Shown: positions 1,609-19,229 of the stretch, piece by piece
Numbering within the stretch: position 1 is the stretch's first letter
Layout: every line of letters starts with the position of its first letter
DNA from: a virus
Direction: 5' to 3' (one strand)
DNA: 21,595 nt
IMG/VR virus record: IMGVR_UViG_3300031658_000162
Coordinates: 1 to 21,595 of that record
Program-made: the position numbers and the translations under genes
The notes under the pieces: generated by a model
Database searches by the model: none
The model's input: the letters and a program-made list of their open reading frames with translations, nothing else
What the model was told of the DNA's origin: nothing

Positions 1609-2508
1609 TTATCGTATATTATGATTACTTTTCTTTTTGATATCGATAAATTTTTTGGTGCCTGTCTTTTTTTCTTCGATGACGGGTTCGGTTTTCTCAA
1701 CGGCATTTAACCATTTCTTGACAGTACGGTTCTCATCAAGTTCAACCACAAGATAGTTTGTTCCAAAATGGGTAATGATGCCCATTTCGTCAGACTCTTT
1801 TATGATTACGGTGTCGCCAATTTCAAACAGTTTGCCTTGCACAAATTGCTCTCGTTCTTTGGATACAGATTCAAGTTCTATGTGTCGTTTAAATACTGTA
1901 TTTTCTTTTAGTCCCAATCCACTACGCACATCAATGAACAACTTCTTCGCATCTTTGTTTGCCATTGTGGTAGGTAGACCCTGATTAAATGAAGAAAAAT
2001 CATTCTCGCTTGCAAACTTACGCATCTTAGAAGCAGACATACCACTCACACCTTCTGCGTCAGGGTCTCGTTCACCAGCACTAACAACAGAGATAGACTT
2101 AAAATTATAGAAACCGTGTGCGCCTTTCACGCCATTGTATTTGTTAAGTAGAGTTTCAAACTCAAGAACTCGGTCGCTACCCGCAACGAATACTACGCTA
2201 CGGTAACCCTTATCATAAAGATATGCCGATGCATCAAATGCAGTACGGACCTTTTTATTAATCAAAACCCTTCGGGCATGACGAGGAAACATTTTTCGAA
2301 CATGCCTCACCTTCGAAGTGTAGTCTAAAGGATTTTTCTTACTATCCTGAGTTTGTGATAGAAATGCAAAGTAATTATTCTTACCTGCTTTCTGCGACAG
2401 AGCATCCAGAAGTTTACCATGACCAATCGTAGGAGGATTAAGTCTGCCAAACGCATAGTAGGCAACCTTATCTTCTTCAATTAAATAATCACTAAATGAG
2501 GATATCAT
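1609..2508 (-). CDS. Nucleotidyltransferase (cytidylyltransferase-like, HIGH fold) with C-terminal KOW/SH3-like domain
   Basis: The product has 299 residues. Residues 15-200 form a HIGH-superfamily nucleotidyltransferase: GRLNPPTIGH at 21-30 is the (H/T)xGH nucleotide-binding motif, and SGMSASKMRK at 155-164 matches the ISSTxxR-type signature. From memory, T4-like marine phages carry close relatives with the same NPPT-GH and SGMSASKMR blocks. Residues about 225-270 (LFEIGDTVIIKES, then NYLVVELDE) look like a small KOW/SH3 barrel. The substrate is unknown; NMN or phosphocholine/CTP-type chemistry is typical of the fold. The N-terminus MISSFSDYLIEE resembles a T4 capsid-targeting peptide ending in L-x-E. 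It is last in a six-gene late operon, and its ATG directly follows the upstream TAA. Confidence 0.8.
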   Translation of the reverse strand: MISSFSDYLIEEDKVAYYAFGRLNPPTIGHGKLLDALSQKAGKNNYFAFLSQTQDSKKNPLDYTSKVRHVRKMFPRHARRVLINKKVRTAFDASAYLYDKGYRSVVFVAGSDRVLEFETLLNKYNGVKGAHGFYNFKSISVVSAGERDPDAEGVSGMSASKMRKFASENDFSSFNQGLPTTMANKDAKKLFIDVRSGLGLKENTVFKRHIELESVSKEREQFVQGKLFEIGDTVIIKESDEMGIITHFGTNYLVVELDENRTVKKWLNAVEKTEPVIEEKKTGTKKFIDIKKKSNHNIR

Positions 2509-2808
2509 TTATGATTCTTCCCCTATGTTAGAACCAAAGAGACCTGAGTTTGCTCGGTTGGTTCGAATGTTTTTTGCCTTTCGCATTCCTTTAGCGCGGT
2601 CTTTCTTACTATCTTTCTTTGCGGCATCGGAATAGCGATTCAAAAGTTTGTTAGACATTTCATCAGTCTGCTCGACATCTTCTCCGACAGTTCCACGGTG
2701 ACGCTTCTGCGCTTGGTAGTTTGTATGCTGACCCATTCCAGGAACATAGTCAACGACTGTAAAGTCCTTGAAGGAAAGTCTTCGTGGTTCATCGTCTGTA
2801 TTTTTCAT
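2509..2808 (-). CDS. Small basic phage protein, unknown function
   Basis: The product has 99 residues and I do not recognise it. It is hydrophilic, with acidic and aromatic residues near the N-terminus (SFKDFTVVDYVPGMG) and a strongly basic, Lys/Arg-rich C-terminal half (residues 60-90). It overlaps the upstream gene by 4 nt (ATGA) and abuts the downstream nucleotidyltransferase, so it is cotranscribed with the putative head-protein operon. Unlike its neighbours it does not begin with MK(S/R)F, although SFKDF at residues 12-16 is reminiscent. A nucleic-acid-binding or structural role is possible but unsupported. Confidence 0.7.
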   Translation of the reverse strand: MKNTDDEPRRLSFKDFTVVDYVPGMGQHTNYQAQKRHRGTVGEDVEQTDEMSNKLLNRYSDAAKKDSKKDRAKGMRKAKNIRTNRANSGLFGSNIGEES

Positions 2809-3005
2809 GATGGATATTTCCCATTACCGATTTCTAGTTTATTTTTTGGCATATGCTTCTGTGTGCGTTTAACGTATGCTTTTGCTTCTTCTTCTGATTC
2901 AAACCTACCCATCTTACTGTTCGACTTAAACGAACTCGGTGAGTGAACATACCACGGATGAGACTTTATGGTCTTCGCTTCATTGAATTGTGCGAATCTT
3001 TTCAT
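2805..3005 (-). CDS. Small protein with capsid-targeting-like N-terminus
   Basis: The product has 66 residues. The first ten, MKRFAQFNEA, match the layout of T4 internal-protein targeting peptides (MKTYQEFIxE followed by A): M-K-x-aromatic, two residues, an aromatic, one residue, then Glu-Ala. The mature part would be a 57-residue basic protein with FESEEEAKAYVKRTQ as a predicted helix. It overlaps both neighbours by 4 nt (ATGA), indicating translational coupling. No enzymatic motif is visible. A packaged internal head protein is my inference. Confidence 0.75.
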   Translation of the reverse strand: MKRFAQFNEAKTIKSHPWYVHSPSSFKSNSKMGRFESEEEAKAYVKRTQKHMPKNKLEIGNGKYPS

Positions 3006-3493
3006 TTCCTGTCCAAATAGAATACGCTTCCAGTGGTAGTTGACTTGACCAATATCTTAAATTTGCTTCCAAAGAATTTATTCGCCATACGGAGATAGAG
3101 TTTCTCTCTGGTCGCCATTACCATCCTTGGTGCGCCACTGGGTTTCTCTGCTGCAAACGAAATGTATTTCGGGTCTTCTTTCTTCACAAAGTCTTGAGCA
3201 ATCTTCATGACAGTGGAAAATATTTTGAGAGCGTCACCCTCGCCAGTGACATCATATGATGCCTTTGACCCATTACCCCTTCGACTGAAACCAATATTCC
3301 ATATATAATAATCATCATCGTCTGCGTTTTCACTACCGACTATATCGACTTGGATGCGAGTTGTATTTATTTTCCCTTCGGCATTTTCGGTTTTTGAATC
3401 GAACCCGTATGAGTATTCATCATTAGAAACTTTCTTTCCATTGAACTTATAAGAAGAATCGAATGCTTCATTAAATTGTGTAAAAGATTTCAT
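3002..3493 (-). CDS. Conserved T4-like marine-phage protein with capsid-targeting-like N-terminus
   Basis: The product has 163 residues. It starts MKSFTQFNEA, nearly identical to the start of the next gene product (MKRFAQFNEA) although the remaining sequences are unrelated. That pattern fits a shared sorting peptide rather than shared ancestry. The central block (DVTGEGDALKIFSTVMKIAQDFV, then YISFAAEKPSGAPR and a KLYLRMANKF helix) is, from memory, a recurrent phage family of unknown function. It has some resemblance to acetyltransferase-like alpha/beta folds, but I see no catalytic motif. It overlaps both neighbours by 4 nt. Confidence 0.78.
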   Translation of the reverse strand: MKSFTQFNEAFDSSYKFNGKKVSNDEYSYGFDSKTENAEGKINTTRIQVDIVGSENADDDDYYIWNIGFSRRGNGSKASYDVTGEGDALKIFSTVMKIAQDFVKKEDPKYISFAAEKPSGAPRMVMATREKLYLRMANKFFGSKFKILVKSTTTGSVFYLDRK

Positions 3494-4065
3494 CGTACAG
3501 TACCATATGAGAATGATATTGGCATTTCTTTGATTCCGACTTCCTTTGCGATACCCAGTCTATGGTTGCCCTCTCCGAGTAGCACCTCAACGTCACCGTT
3601 CTTTCTCCGGTCAATGCTGACATGACCATACTCTTTGATACCGTTCTTCTTTATGTCTGCTTTGAGTTTCTTCATTTCAGACTCGGTGTTCTTACCAGTG
3701 AATCCACCGACCATCTTGCGGTCATATTCTCTTACCTTCCACAACTCGCTTATGCTAATCATGGGTTGGAAGTTATCGGCAACCTTCACGTTACCGTTCG
3801 CGAATATCTTGATGATGTTATCAAGGGTCACCTTGCCGCCACATTCTTTCTTTAGTTCGCTCTGTGAACGAACATATGTAGAGAAACCTTCTTGCTTTTG
3901 ACCACTGTACTTCCGTGGTTTATATCGTTTTTGTGTGGAATGCTTTGCGAGTACAGCATCCGACTTCTTCATCACCTTATCTATCTCTGCCTTAGAGACA
4001 GGTTCAAAGTCTGCGAGCATATCGTCAAGGAATCCTTCCTCAATGTATCGAGCGAATCGTTTCAC
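3490..4065 (-). CDS. ParB/sulfiredoxin-like domain protein with capsid-targeting-like N-terminus
   Basis: The product has 191 residues. Residues about 130-187 form a ParB/sulfiredoxin-type core: a helix (MKKLKADIKKNGI), a beta strand, then LLGEGNHRLGIAKEVG (163-177). GEGNHRL is the GxGxHR nucleotide-binding loop of the family. Proteins of this fold bind or hydrolyse NTPs, or bind DNA; the activity here is unknown. The first 120 residues are lysine-rich and unrecognised. The start MKRFARYIEEGF resembles a T4-type head-targeting peptide, with possible processing after a Glu at position 9 or 10. There is a 4-nt overlap downstream and a 3-nt gap to the upstream gene. Confidence 0.72.
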   Translation of the reverse strand: MKRFARYIEEGFLDDMLADFEPVSKAEIDKVMKKSDAVLAKHSTQKRYKPRKYSGQKQEGFSTYVRSQSELKKECGGKVTLDNIIKIFANGNVKVADNFQPMISISELWKVREYDRKMVGGFTGKNTESEMKKLKADIKKNGIKEYGHVSIDRRKNGDVEVLLGEGNHRLGIAKEVGIKEMPISFSYGTVR

Positions 4066-4068
4066 TGT

Positions 4069-5304
4069 TTAACCACGCCCCTTAGAGTCCCAACCCTTTA
4101 AGATATCGGGAGAGAAGTTGTTGTAACTGAATTCCATTCGGTCAACAAGTTTAACAGCATCTCCACCAAGTTTATCAATGGCAACGAAACCCTCTTGACC
4201 AGTAACCTTATACCCCTTACTTGTCTTGACAAATGTGTCAATACTTGCAAGGTCATTGAGTTTATTTATAAGGATTAGTTTTGCCGTTACCAACTGCTTT
4301 TGCAACTCAAACATGTTAATAAGACTTGCACTGTTTTCCTTTGAGAAGAATGACAATATCTCTGCGAGTTTCTTCTGCTGGACTTTCTTACCAGCATCAC
4401 TTGAACGCTTGTCCTCTTCCTTCTTGTATTTTGCTTTCAACCAGTTCTGTAATGCGATGGTATGTCTGCGCGAGTCTTTGATCATTTCGCCCTTACGAAC
4501 AAAGGTATTGTTGAACTGCTCTATCAGTTGGGCAAGTTGTGGGTTTGCTTCTAGTTGACGCAGAGTGCTTCCCGCTACTTTAGAAAACAACTTACCCGCA
4601 TTAGATAAGGCAGCATCAACCGCCTTAGTTTCCTTTTCCGTTAGCGTAGCAACCGAGACATCACGCAGCATGGCATCCTGAGACCATACCTTACTTGTGG
4701 TTTTCAGTATGTTTACGTTAACACCATAGGATGCTTTCAGTGTTTCAAATGAAGAACCTGTGTATGTTGTGTGCCAAACGATTCCTATGGTCGCCTTCTT
4801 AACTTCCTTTGCACCTATGGACTTGGCAGGGAACGCATACACAATAGTGTTGGGGTGAAATGTTGTATACTTTTCTCCACCGATACCTTTATTCTGCACA
4901 TCACCAGGACCGAACAAGAAGTCGCCCTGTATGACACCTTTGATTCCAAGCAGTGGTAGTAACTCAAGTGCAGCATTCATTTTTGTGTTGAGGTCGCCAG
5001 ATGTATCGGCATCAACATCTGCTTTTGTTTTATAAACTTTGGGGTTCTTATTGAAGACACCTTTCTTGGCGACAAAGAACTCTCCATCGCTTGGGTCAGT
5101 GCCAGCAAAGATTGCTGGTGCGCCATCCCACTTTACAGAGATGTCTTGCTTGTGCTTACCCTGCAACATATCACGGAGTTCCCTCAAGGCATTGATTGCC
5201 TGTCGGGTTCCGTCCACACCACCATAGATAACCTGATCTTCCAAGTGTGTCATGTGGGTATTCTTCTGTTCAGACAGAATCTGTTGGTGTAGAAATGATT
5301 TCAT
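4069..5304 (-). CDS. DUF6267-type protein, covalent-nucleotidyltransferase/ligase-like
   Basis: The product has 411 residues. It matches from memory the DUF6267 family of T4-like cyanophages and other marine phages (THLEHLED-like start, VKWDGAPAIFAG, FFVAKKGVFNKNPK). Several motifs are laid out as in the DNA/RNA ligase superfamily: K58-W-D-G61 (KxDG, candidate nucleotidylated lysine), VIQGDFLF at 124-131 (motif III-like), NTIVYAFPA at 152-160, EGFVA at 371-375 (EGxV, motif IV) and AVKLVDR at 383-389 (motif V, K385). A roughly 190-residue helical insertion separates the two halves. Ligase or capping activity is therefore an inference. It is the first gene after a TATAAATA motif and starts MKSFLHQQILSEQ, a divergent version of the targeting peptide. 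Confidence 0.8.
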   Translation of the reverse strand: MKSFLHQQILSEQKNTHMTHLEDQVIYGGVDGTRQAINALRELRDMLQGKHKQDISVKWDGAPAIFAGTDPSDGEFFVAKKGVFNKNPKVYKTKADVDADTSGDLNTKMNAALELLPLLGIKGVIQGDFLFGPGDVQNKGIGGEKYTTFHPNTIVYAFPAKSIGAKEVKKATIGIVWHTTYTGSSFETLKASYGVNVNILKTTSKVWSQDAMLRDVSVATLTEKETKAVDAALSNAGKLFSKVAGSTLRQLEANPQLAQLIEQFNNTFVRKGEMIKDSRRHTIALQNWLKAKYKKEEDKRSSDAGKKVQQKKLAEILSFFSKENSASLINMFELQKQLVTAKLILINKLNDLASIDTFVKTSKGYKVTGQEGFVAIDKLGGDAVKLVDRMEFSYNNFSPDILKGWDSKGRG

Positions 5305-5348: not shown

Positions 5349-6362
5349 TTATTTCCACGGATCACCACTGAATTTAACAGATGATGCCATTGCTTGTGAT
5401 TCATACTTAACTCTCATTTTCATTATTCTATAAGAACCTGCCATTATTCCTATAGAATCATTACCAACTTTTGATATTATAATTTTTTCCTTATTCATAT
5501 ACCCCATCTTACTATTTTTCAATGGGTCTAATAATGAAGCAGTGTATGGAGATTTAGAACCATGTCCGGTAACTTTTATATAAGCAGGTCTGATAATATC
5601 ATCAGCGTCCAACCAATCACTAAGCACATATTGTTTTAAATCTTTTTGAGATAATTTTTTTAATTTTTTAAAAAAAGAATCTCTTGTTTTACCTAATATC
5701 ACATCCCTTGCTGTATTTGATGCTTCTATTAATTTTTTATTTTTTCTTATTTCGTTTTTTCTAGTGCTTTTTGATTTAGATAAATTATATGTTTCGGCAA
5801 AATTGTTTTCGTGTTTATCTATTTCGCTTTTTAAATTAATACTAAGTGAAGTTTCTATTGTACCAACGCCAGGATTTTTAAATCCTATATCACCTTTACC
5901 AGCAGTAGATTTTGCAGATATTCCTAAAAATAATTTGGTAGTATTAAATTGTACCAATGTATCTGTCGGATTCTTTCTCGAATCTACTTCATATCCTACA
6001 GCTTTAGATAATACACCAGGTCTTGCAGTCCACCAAACTTTGGATACCGATGAACCATATTTATTTTCTTTAGCCCATTTTAAAGATTCAACCGACATAA
6101 CTTTAGCTCTGTCGTCTTGTATTTTATAATCCTTTTCACCAATTTGCTTTCTTCGTTTTTCAAGTTGTTTTTTAACTTCTAATTGATCTTGATAACCAGT
6201 CCATTTACCACCAAGAAGATAATAACCAAGTAGTATTTCGTTTACATCCGCTTTTAATGTTTCTGCTGCCATCTCTTTACCTATTTGTCCTACTGGATTA
6301 TACAATACTTTAAGTTTATTTATACTCCCTATTCCATAATATAAACTGGGTATAGATTTCAT
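5349..6362 (-). CDS. AT-rich gene of unknown function, possible PD-(D/E)xK-like nuclease
   Basis: The product has 337 residues, is Lys-rich, and I do not recognise it. Composition is unlike its neighbours: the 60-base lines starting at 5641 and 5701 are 17% and 23% G+C, against 42% for the line at 4741. A block NPTDTLVQF (about residue 130) followed by FLGISAKST and GDIGFKNPG could be a D-Xn-(S)xK variant of a restriction-endonuclease-like active site; this is weak. The start is uncertain. The ATG at 6362 has AGAGG with no spacing and overlaps the upstream gene by 47 nt. The ATG at 6272 has AGG 7 nt upstream and lies downstream of a TATAAATA at 6317-6324. Recent acquisition is likely from composition. 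Confidence 0.7.
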   Translation of the reverse strand: MKSIPSLYYGIGSINKLKVLYNPVGQIGKEMAAETLKADVNEILLGYYLLGGKWTGYQDQLEVKKQLEKRRKQIGEKDYKIQDDRAKVMSVESLKWAKENKYGSSVSKVWWTARPGVLSKAVGYEVDSRKNPTDTLVQFNTTKLFLGISAKSTAGKGDIGFKNPGVGTIETSLSINLKSEIDKHENNFAETYNLSKSKSTRKNEIRKNKKLIEASNTARDVILGKTRDSFFKKLKKLSQKDLKQYVLSDWLDADDIIRPAYIKVTGHGSKSPYTASLLDPLKNSKMGYMNKEKIIISKVGNDSIGIMAGSYRIMKMRVKYESQAMASSVKFSGDPWK

Positions 6363-10166: not shown

Positions 10167-10282
10167 GGGATTGCGATACTGTGTCTTTGGATTGAGTCTG
10201 GTTCAATCTCACCGCCCACCCCGCACCAAATAGTCACACTTAGTGGAATTAGTATCGCGATTATTATTACAAGTTTATTCAC
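10163..10282 (-). CDS. 39-residue single-span membrane microprotein
   Basis: This is a short ORF with a GTG start overlapping the DNA ligase stop as GTGA, the junction type used elsewhere in this phage. The product begins VNKLVIIIAILIPLSVTIW, one hydrophobic span, followed by CGVGGEIEPDSIQRHSIAIP. The Cys just after the span could suggest a lipoprotein, but it is not in a canonical lipobox. It ends with TAA exactly at the boundary of promoter module B. The overlap and the clean membrane-peptide composition support coding; the function is unknown. Confidence 0.6.
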   Translation of the reverse strand: MNKLVIIIAILIPLSVTIWCGVGGEIEPDSIQRHSIAIP

Positions 10283-11382
10283 AGTTCCACTTTCCACTGC
10301 AATGCTATTGGTAGTTGTGGTATGCCATCCTTGGAGTAATTATGGTACTTTACTGTCAAGATGTTGCCGATACATTCATCACGGTGTTTCCACTCCAGTG
10401 CTTTCTCATGCATGTTCCCTGCTGCTGTGACATTGAATGTCGCACCAGACTCGGTCTCGCATATCCAGACAGGAACACGATATGTCTTGTGATTGTCTGC
10501 GCGGATGCGCGGGGTTCCTTCCTCGTATCCTATGACTTTGAACTCTGCGTCATGAAACTCTTTGACCTTGAGTAGTTTGCGTGACCGCTTATCAACCTGA
10601 TAACCATCGCTGCCAAATCGCAACATGGTTCCTTCGTAACCTTCTTCGCGCCAATCTGCATGGTGTTCCATTAGTTCTTCCATGTTGTCGATAGCGTATG
10701 TTGGATTGGCAACAATCTTTGGATGGAACGGAAAACATCCTTCCTCAAATTCATCAGTCCTATCTAAGAAAGAAGCATGCTCGTCAACAACATCATAGAT
10801 ATGATATTCAATATCAAGTGCCGCTTCTGGATTCTTCTTCGCTCCCTTGATAAGACTTGATACTTCTTGTAGAGTTTTACCATGCAGATATAACTCACCG
10901 TCAAGATGTAGATGCTGTAAGGAAGAAGATTCTATTGCCTCAATTATATGTGGTAGGTCGATAACTTTACCAGACCTAGAATATAAAACACCATCAAGAA
11001 ATAATGCACGATGCCCATCCAACTTTGGTTGACAGAGTGCCGTATCCCAATCGATAGTTTCTGGTTTGACTTTATCAAGTGATGCGGCAAGCATAGGTTT
11101 AGGTAAACCCAATGCGTTAGTCGATGTGACCTCTGCTGCCTTGATGCTATCAACATACCCCTTGTCAATTTTCAACCGTGACTTAGATTCCAGTTCAAGA
11201 ACCGCTTGCTCTTCGGGTGTAGTCTCATTAGACTTACCGATGTTTTTACCAGTCGCAGTGTGTTGACTTGTAACTGCTTTGCCACCTATGACTGTTGCAC
11301 TGCGAGAGAAAACAATATCTCCCTCCGTCCAACCTTCCCAGATGCCGACTCGACCGTTGTGATTTTTGTATAATGTAATCAT
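10279..11382 (-). CDS. ATP-dependent DNA ligase with WGR-like N-terminal domain
   Basis: The product has 367 residues with the start at 11382 (MITLYKNHNG, AAGGGA 5 nt upstream). An in-frame ATG at 11418 would overlap the previous gene and looks spurious. Residues 1-80 resemble a WGR domain (GRVGIWEGW, GKNIGKSNETTPEEQA). The catalytic core shows every adenylation motif: I QPKLDG (K120), Ia RSGK (136-139), III DGELYLHG (161-168), IIIa YHIYDVV (193-199), IV EGTMLR (250-255) and V LLKVKEF (270-276). A C-terminal OB-fold-like segment follows. It seals nicks during phage replication and recombination. It is cotranscribed with the 69- and 64-residue genes from module C. Confidence 0.93.
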   Translation of the reverse strand: MITLYKNHNGRVGIWEGWTEGDIVFSRSATVIGGKAVTSQHTATGKNIGKSNETTPEEQAVLELESKSRLKIDKGYVDSIKAAEVTSTNALGLPKPMLAASLDKVKPETIDWDTALCQPKLDGHRALFLDGVLYSRSGKVIDLPHIIEAIESSSLQHLHLDGELYLHGKTLQEVSSLIKGAKKNPEAALDIEYHIYDVVDEHASFLDRTDEFEEGCFPFHPKIVANPTYAIDNMEELMEHHADWREEGYEGTMLRFGSDGYQVDKRSRKLLKVKEFHDAEFKVIGYEEGTPRIRADNHKTYRVPVWICETESGATFNVTAAGNMHEKALEWKHRDECIGNILTVKYHNYSKDGIPQLPIALQWKVEL

Positions 11383-11383
11383 A

Positions 11384-11593
11384 TTATCCCTTTGGATAAA
11401 TTGCGAATGTGGTTGCATGTTCTACGAGACAAGTTGCCTGACCTCGAACACCGGGTCGCCTTGGACCGCGATACTTTAATCTGCAACCAGAATATGCGAG
11501 TGCGCGAATGACAATGTTATCGCGGTATCTCATTGGGATGCCTTTGTAAATTGAAGATTCACTTTCTGGTGAAATGTAATCAAAAATATTCAT
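11384..11593 (-). CDS. Small basic conserved phage protein (RYRGPRR motif)
   Basis: I chose the ATG at 11593 (MNIFDYISPES), preceded by GAGGTGG at good spacing. The longer reading to 11671 overlaps the upstream gene. The product has 69 residues. The C-terminal block LKYRGPRRPGVRG, then TCLVEHATTFAIYP is, from memory, recurrent in small T4-like phage proteins. It is basic and Gly/Arg-rich, so nucleic-acid binding is possible. It ends 1 nt before the DNA ligase start, so the two are likely translated together. Confidence 0.75.
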   Translation of the reverse strand: MNIFDYISPESESSIYKGIPMRYRDNIVIRALAYSGCRLKYRGPRRPGVRGQATCLVEHATTFAIYPKG

Positions 11594-12065: not shown

Positions 12066-12260
12066 TTACGCCTTGCTCGCGTCTAACAATTCTCTCATCG
12101 GGAACTGTCCTATTTCCTGGAAGTCGCGAGAGACACCCTCTGGAGAATTGGCAACCCACTCGCGTACCATATCTGCGAGACAATCCGCAGGGAAATGCCC
12201 CACCATTACATCATTTTCCAGCAGGACTACGATTCTTTTGCTATCAGATTCTTTGTTCAT
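12066..12260 (-). CDS. Hypothetical early protein (64 aa)
   Basis: The product has 64 residues and I do not recognise it. It begins with a charged segment (MNKESDSKR), then a beta strand (IVVLLEND), then helices (CLADMVREWVANS, MRELLDASKA). It is first after module D and shares with 12348-12599 an almost identical purine-rich leader directly before the ATG. Confidence 0.68.
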   Translation of the reverse strand: MNKESDSKRIVVLLENDVMVGHFPADCLADMVREWVANSPEGVSRDFQEIGQFPMRELLDASKA

Positions 12261-18778: not shown

Positions 18779-19020
18779 TTTCCATCTCCGTGTATCTGCG
18801 CCTGTTGTGCTGATACTTCATATAGGTTCCATTTATGGATAAGGTATGTCATTGACAGATTCTCTATTGTGTAACAAAACGCCCACTGGTCACCTCGTAT
18901 TTCAAAAATCTTTCTACGACAATCTTCATCATCATCACCTTCAACAATCAGGAAACACTTGTGGAGTCGTTCTCCACCCAATGTCATATGTTCCCTGCCA
19001 AAAGTGACCATGATTTTCAT
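18775..19020 (-). CDS. Hypothetical protein (81 aa) in the ACP unit
   Basis: The product has 81 residues. Strand-helix pattern: MVTFGREHM, KCFLIVEGDDDEDCRRKIFEIRG, QWAFCYTIENLSMTYLIHKWNLYEV. The segment with F-L-I-V-E-G-x-D-x-x-x-A/C-x-x-K looks like a small alpha/beta fold. It overlaps the acyl carrier protein gene by 4 nt (ATGA) and the 48-residue gene by 4 nt, so all three are translationally coupled. The function is unknown. Confidence 0.7.
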   Translation of the reverse strand: MKIMVTFGREHMTLGGERLHKCFLIVEGDDDEDCRRKIFEIRGDQWAFCYTIENLSMTYLIHKWNLYEVSAQQAQIHGDGK

Positions 19021-19229
19021 ATCGCTTCCATTAACCTCTCTACTAATGCGGTTCTTTCTGTAACGCCTTCGAGAATATTTAGGTCAAGGTTGATATCAAA
19101 ATGATCTTCTACATCGGTAATTATCGTCATAGCAGTTAGACTATCGAATACATTGTGCATATCGTATCCCTCCTCTTCCAATACTTTGTCTATAATATTA
19201 TTTATCGCTTTTTGCTTAATTTCATTCAT
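19017..19229 (-). CDS. Acyl carrier protein
   Basis: The product has 70 residues. FDSLTAMTIITDVEDHFDINLDLNILEGVTERTALVERLMEAI has the ACP layout: the DSL motif (D29-S30-L31) where Ser30 would carry 4'-phosphopantetheine, helix II with acidic residues (VEDHFDI), then helix IV at the C-terminus. Length is normal for ACPs (about 70-80). It would need a host phosphopantetheinyl transferase. It lies directly next to the GNAT-fold transferase (15-nt gap), suggesting an acyl-ACP substrate for that enzyme. A TATAAATA motif lies at 19242-19249, 13 nt before the start, too close to be a convincing promoter. Confidence 0.82.
   Translation of the reverse strand: MNEIKQKAINNIIDKVLEEEGYDMHNVFDSLTAMTIITDVEDHFDINLDLNILEGVTERTALVERLMEAI

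Follow-up and report, generated by a model that had tools for sequence, protein, structure and literature searches.

The window analysed here is the complete IMG/VR record IMGVR_UViG_3300031658_000162 (21,595 bases) of a T4-like marine phage whose closest annotated relatives are Phage C48C1 and Methylophilales phage Melnitz. Six minus-strand genes run from position 5304 to position 1609, with junctions in gene order of +3, -4, -4, -4 and 0 bases; at three of these the stop codon overlaps the next start codon. Their products are a DUF6267 protein, a weakly ParB-like protein, a DUF6934-like protein, two small proteins without assigned function and an NMNAT-like nucleotidyltransferase. A T4-type late promoter, TATAAATA (5343-5336, minus strand), lies 32 bases upstream of the first ATG of the operon. 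The window holds ten sites of this type, all on the minus strand, where 1.34 are expected on both strands, and the element also precedes the DUF6267 gene in L003 and other loci. An earlier sequence-only reading had described a late operon in which five of six consecutive, translationally coupled genes begin with variants of one leader, resembling the peptide that targets T4 proteins to the capsid. Our analysis confirmed the leaders and all six open reading frames at the same coordinates.

Five of the six proteins carry a leader modelled on the pattern F-x-x-[F/Y]-(I/L)-x-E, and in four of the six, with leaders of about ten residues, the aromatics stand three apart, the spacing of T4 positions 4 and 7. 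The first gene (4069..5304; this and all operon features below are on the minus strand) encodes the 411-residue DUF6267 protein (Pfam PF19782, E 1e-100; phrog_455). Its leader, MKSFLHQQILSE (5269..5304), has F4, is longer than about ten residues, and is predicted from homolog conservation to be cut before QKNTHMTH. The 191-residue protein (3490..4065, GTG start) begins with VKRFARYIEE (4036..4065), for which ortholog comparison predicts a cut before GFLDD. The 163-residue DUF6934-like protein (3002..3493; PF22028, E 1.9e-6) and the 66-residue protein (2805..3005; no family match above noise in Pfam and PHROG searches) have short-form leaders, MKSFTQFNE (3467..3493) and MKRFAQFNE (2979..3005), which are one residue shorter than the standard form found in their orthologs. 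Predicted cuts lie before AFD in the former (orthologs MIGFDHYLTE|AFD and MIKFSQYIEE|AFN) and before AKT in the latter, whose orthologs keep AKT after MIKFAKYLGE, MIKFAKYLRE and MIKFSQYIEE. A peptide-pattern scan for relatives of 3002-3493 found none; the orthologs surfaced in loci found with other queries. The 299-residue nucleotidyltransferase (1609..2508; PF01467, phrog_3041/395 and an AlphaFold model) starts with MISSFSDYLIE (2476..2508), and homolog conservation and the low predicted local distance difference test (pLDDT) score of the leader suggest a cut before E12. Judged by sequence, the DUF6267, 191-residue and nucleotidyltransferase leaders end in (I/L)-x-E, and the two short forms in FNE.

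The remaining protein, of 99 residues (2509..2808), had been set apart as lacking the clear leader. It indeed has no cleavage Glu, but it does have a leader-like core, LSFKDFTVVD (2749..2778), with V/D in place of the cleavable Glu and with the aromatic pair further from the N-terminus than in the other leaders. This core is common to at least 25 homologs, as [LG][SGN]FKDF[LMV]xVD. The window copy seems shortened relative to same-start homologs in L133 (338 residues) and L132 (448 residues).

The leader was compared across about 80 DUF6267-related contigs from IMG/VR. In these relatives the first ten or so residues vary save for F, the second aromatic, I/L and E, and this variable leader sits directly before an almost invariant KNTHMTHIED. 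F4 and E12 are at least 90% conserved in 43 DUF6267 homologs, in which the body is nearly invariant from K14 and mean entropy is 1.64 bits at residues 2-12 versus 0.54 at residues 13-60. All 36 nucleotidyltransferase homologs have F5, L9 and E11, with either Y or F at position 8, and orthologs of the 191-residue protein keep GFLDD after leaders as different as MKSFSQFIEE, MKTFSQFMQE and VKRLKSYLVQE. Mutagenesis of T4 IPIII assigned residues 4 and 7 to targeting and residues 8 and 10 to processing (PMC9026906). The conserved leader positions are these functional residues, so the leader agrees with the T4 targeting peptide where residues are known to matter, and the alignment of homologous N-termini proposed earlier shows variation at most other leader positions. 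We conclude with high confidence that the leader is a T4-type capsid-targeting sequence. Asp at position 10 of IPIII blocks processing and leaves targeting intact (PMC9026906), and by analogy the family of the 99-residue protein (FKDFLTVD) looks like a natural unprocessed leader variant. Separately, one DUF6267 gene (L010, 3544-4752) is leaderless, starting MAEKNTHMTH directly after an upstream stop codon.

Could the shared N-termini be a DNA or mRNA feature, such as a start context or recombination seed, with a functionless peptide? ATGAAA starts are common, the operon genes overlap, and in L130/L138 the leaders of unrelated proteins match at 27-29 of 30 bases, while their flanks agree no better than by chance. 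Across loci, however, identical leader residues use identical codons equally often within loci (0.56) and between loci (0.55). This equality leads us to reject a nucleic-acid element as the source of the similarity, apart from L130/L138, where leader DNA seems to have been copied recently. Conservation at the T4 functional residues and the power of the leader to predict virion proteins, described below, also count against this explanation, which we judge to be extremely improbable. In L130/L138, near-identical leader DNA with unrelated flanks suggests that tag DNA was recently copied between unrelated genes. The same contig contains five successive genes with near-identical leaders (L138, 348-2395).

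We also considered whether the leaders could resemble one another by chance, given that AT-rich phage genes often start with MK-x-F, that single leaders are short, and that one or two false matches arise per genome. Using a scoring matrix of eight columns trained only on 50 distinct DUF6267 leaders, we found scores of at least 8 at 122 of 1,156 same-strand neighbour N-termini in 78 related loci versus 9 of 4,821 internal Met sites; because the loci are related to one another, the neighbour counts are not independent and a p-value would be inflated. High-scoring neighbours are concentrated from -2 to +5 kb of DUF6267. A stricter regular expression, applied to five long genomes, a T4 stretch and the window, matched 17 of 1,155 N-termini and 2 of 4,716 internal Met sites. 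The leaders are enriched over internal Met controls, they cluster no further than about 5 kb from DUF6267, and orthologs with changed residues still keep the pattern. Together these findings exclude chance for the leader set as a whole, and we give it virtually no credence. Matches at score 6 form 19 BLAST clusters, the weakest of them marginal, that include DUF5824, HAD-phosphatase-like and zeta-toxin-like proteins, as well as a RimK-like protein in Melnitz. The Melnitz isolate EXVC044M bears leaders on three genes, at 12203, 13272 and 21306.

The matrix, trained without T4, was then applied to the whole T4 genome. Among 1,258 start candidates, gp61.1, IPIII and IPII rank 1, 3 and 4; gp44, at rank 2, is a false match, and IPI and Alt score lower than the top ranks. 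This recovery and the agreement at positions 4, 7, 8 and 10 substantiate the earlier comparison with the T4 peptide. Gene 61.1 (AF158101, 18966-19130; L126) starts MKTFKEFIKE|D, the top-scoring leader of T4, and its product may be an internal head protein that has so far escaped notice. Relatives have small proteins with leaders of this sort (L129, 4704; G001, 18981-19142; L061, 11083).

The operon resembles the T4 IPI, IPII and IPIII system (MKTYQEFIAE|A) in leader length, aromatics at 4 and 7, I/L at 8 and E at 10, and also in its unrelated mature parts, its late promoter and a gp21-type protease, found here in long relatives. It differs in scale and detail. T4 has a few small internal proteins at two loci, whereas here a single operon of six genes codes for DUF6267, an NMNAT-like enzyme and four further proteins; two of its leaders are short by one residue, and another has no Glu. 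T4 Alt, an ADP-ribosyltransferase, offers the parallel of an injected enzyme that is loaded into the head and cleaved by gp21, although its N-terminus, MELITELFDE, gives no score with the leader matrix. In the giant phages phiKZ and SPN3US, which belong to a different phage group from the window phage, the prohead protease likewise removes propeptides from many packaged inner-body proteins (PMC9026906).

Processing in this way would need a gp21-like protease, which had been proposed as a check. The corresponding domain, Peptidase_S77, is present in seven of seven long relatives searched, and the aligned relatives' proteases keep the T4 gp21 motifs GELNHP and GVS[ST]RG. A Pfam gp21 search of the window's own 21.6-kb record gave no match, as expected for a record that is a fragment. 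The major capsid proteins of the aligned relatives have the sites FLNE|A, FLTE|T, FMTE|T and FLSE|A (FLTE|A in T4), and sites of this type also close the leaders, as FITE, FLTE and YLIE. These observations bear on the idea that the leader sorts proteins to another place in the particle or cell, such as the tail, baseplate or membrane. Virion mass spectrometry does not resolve location, but the leader matches the head-targeting peptide of T4 and ends like the major capsid protein site at which the head protease cuts, so that we regard another destination as very unlikely.

Cyanophage virions are known to contain metabolic and regulatory enzymes, and their proteomes allow leaders to be compared with virion content. 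The virion proteome of S-CREM2 comprises 52 of 219 proteins (PMC10665884 Table 3). The six S-CREM2 proteins that score highest with the matrix are the cytidylyltransferase gp154, gp13, the S-adenosylmethionine (SAM) hydrolase gp6, gp1, the kinase gp14 and gp136. All but gp1, the uncharacterised gp13 and gp136 included, are virion proteins confirmed by mass spectrometry (hypergeometric p=0.003, falling to 1.7e-4 once endolysins and structural proteins are set aside). The virion protein gp15 has a short-form leader, MNFSEFNE, as in the window, and the Cas9-like virion nuclease gp12 (OR473000, 7704-10313) has LRFASFMAE|A at residues 17-25. A CTG codon before the leader-like RFASFMAE|A (residues 18-25) of gp12 might be its true start. 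Nucleotidyltransferase orthologs detected in virions carry a leader in four phages: S-SM1 (MKKFSAFLNE; PMC3037559), S-SZBM1 (MRFRQFIIE; PMC9146016), S-SCSM1 (MKSFLQFLKE; PMC9602691) and S-CREM2 (MKNFSSFLTE; PMC10665884). The predicted mature N-termini following the leader Glu would be ADEKQQQ in S-CREM2 gp154 and AVAAAAK in the S-SZBM1 enzyme. The leaderless DUF6267 homologs of S-SZBM1 and S-CREM2 are in neither virion list.

Cyanomyovirus virion enzymes thus include NMNAT/cytidylyltransferases, SAM hydrolases, APH-like kinases and a Cas9-like nuclease, the nucleotidyltransferase family being shared with the window (PMC10665884, PMC9602691, PMC9146016). In S-CREM2 they carry the window-type leader, displaced inwards in the nuclease. 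The sections consulted in these papers weigh contamination and offer no targeting mechanism; the leader supplies one. Together with the protease and capsid protein sites of the relatives, the S-CREM2 ranking and the four leader-bearing orthologs support the earlier proposal that the shared leader means sorting into the head.

Several observations pull in the other direction. We chose S-CREM2 already knowing that its virion contains the nucleotidyltransferase, and this one match is therefore not blind. The top S-SZBM1 scorer, a protein of 105 residues with MKSFKSFLSE|S, is not reported in the virion, whereas S-SZBM1_139 from the same region is in the virion without a leader. The authors of the cyanophage proteomes left packaging versus contamination open, and a co-purified protein is possible (PMC10665884, PMC9602691). 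All virion data come from related cyanophages, and no head genes were found in the 21.6-kb record. Within the operon, the two short-form leaders lack L/I at P3, and the 99-residue protein lacks the Glu.

Having weighed these points, we consider it highly probable that the operon encodes packaged cargo with T4-type capsid-targeting sequences that is delivered with the DNA. Because the tag is like the one that loads T4 heads, and because tagged proteins are present in the particles of related cyanophages, it is probable that the operon enzymes are loaded into the head and enter the host with the DNA. Packaging in the window phage is very likely. From the residues at the leader ends, cleavage is likely for DUF6267, the 191-residue protein and the nucleotidyltransferase, uncertain for the two short forms and unlikely for the 99-residue protein, although the latter three are predicted to be targeted. 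Injection with the DNA is plausible by analogy. In this scheme the proteins would be expressed late, and the leader, through its two aromatics three apart, would dock each protein onto the prohead core. A gp21-type protease would then cut after the Glu of (I/L)-x-E, freeing the mature protein inside the head, and the mature proteins would leave with the DNA to act at the start of infection.

Alternatively, the leaders may dock proteins to the prohead core for assembly only, as core or scaffold, in which case the proteins would function in the cell that makes them, or become trapped, rather than being delivered as effectors. Mass spectrometry of virions demonstrates presence, not delivery, and the 99-residue protein seems to be targeted without a cleavage site. 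Counter to this, several leader-bearing proteins are enzymes (the NMNAT-like fold, the S-CREM2 SAM hydrolase and kinase, RimK-like and zeta-toxin-like proteins), and T4 internal proteins with the leader are injected and block host restriction. A role confined to assembly therefore seems unlikely to us.

If the cargo is delivered, what might it do? The enzyme identities suggested earlier fared unevenly. The NMNAT-like fold stood up: the AlphaFold model of the nucleotidyltransferase has a pLDDT of 83.7, NaMNAT/NMNAT structures are its best PDB folds, and it has an HxGH-type fold and nucleotide-binding motifs, seen by eye as GRLNPPTIGH and SASKMRK. PF01467 is just above cut-off, and a PDB sequence search found no match where the fold search did. 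The leader is poorly ordered (block pLDDT 54 for residues 1-10 versus at least 83 for 11-200). Cytidylyltransferases have the same fold as NMNAT and NaMNAT, and the protein is best described as NMNAT-like, a prediction from fold that allows for a different substrate. The 191-residue protein is ParB-like only weakly, through its C-terminal half (phrog_723, E 4.5e-4; no Pfam match). For DUF6267 as a ligase we found no support other than a KWDG motif, and we rejected that reading. PDB sequence search, fold search (no PDB match at E <= 0.001, with a modest model of pLDDT 70.5) and hhalign comparison with T4 RnlB and the ligase-like open reading frame at 10279-11418 of the window (single-sequence targets) were all without a match. 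DUF6267 and the nucleotidyltransferase belong together, because one profile, phrog_455, spans both and the two genes are near each other in most related loci.

Phages counter NAD+ depletion by making NAD+ (reviewed in PMC9503650), so an NMNAT-like enzyme delivered with the DNA would be useful. Its likely role would be to maintain or replenish NAD+ ahead of the onset of phage gene expression, and such cargo points to NAD+ control in the first moments of infection. T4 Ip1, Ip2 and Ip3 each block a different GmrSD (type IV) restriction enzyme (PMC12373910). Given that all three tagged T4 proteins do so, the uncharacterised proteins of the operon are good counter-defence candidates, and T4 anti-restriction is the best model for the small ones.

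Looking beyond the operon, we lean towards the view that T4-like phages of marine and freshwater habitats use T4-type capsid targeting as a general code for cargo. A modular leader would be gained, lost and copied between unrelated genes. In this way nucleases, kinases, SAM hydrolases, NMNAT-like enzymes and numerous uncharacterised proteins would enter the head and be delivered on infection. If so, leader scans would predict many injected effectors of T4-like phages; the leader lists candidates from sequence alone, including those of uncultivated phages, and a predictive tag makes packaging versus contamination testable. The tag itself is of a known kind. That marine T4-like phages use it on an enzyme operon appears to be new, as does the leader as an explanation of unexplained cyanophage virion enzymes. 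Our literature search, with subscription journals mostly outside its coverage, found no paper naming capsid-targeting leaders in marine T4-like phages.

The genes that flank the operon merit brief mention. Upstream, the gene at 5349-6362 has no leader; its relatives do, as MHSFIKFLSE| (L011, 8230-9225) and MQRFLTYIDE| (L032, 1161-2207). Downstream, a second late promoter site (1582-1575) stands ahead of the next gene (1-1534), probably a tail fibre gene, whose product has repeated NTAIG/NTVIG motifs like YadA-type head repeats.

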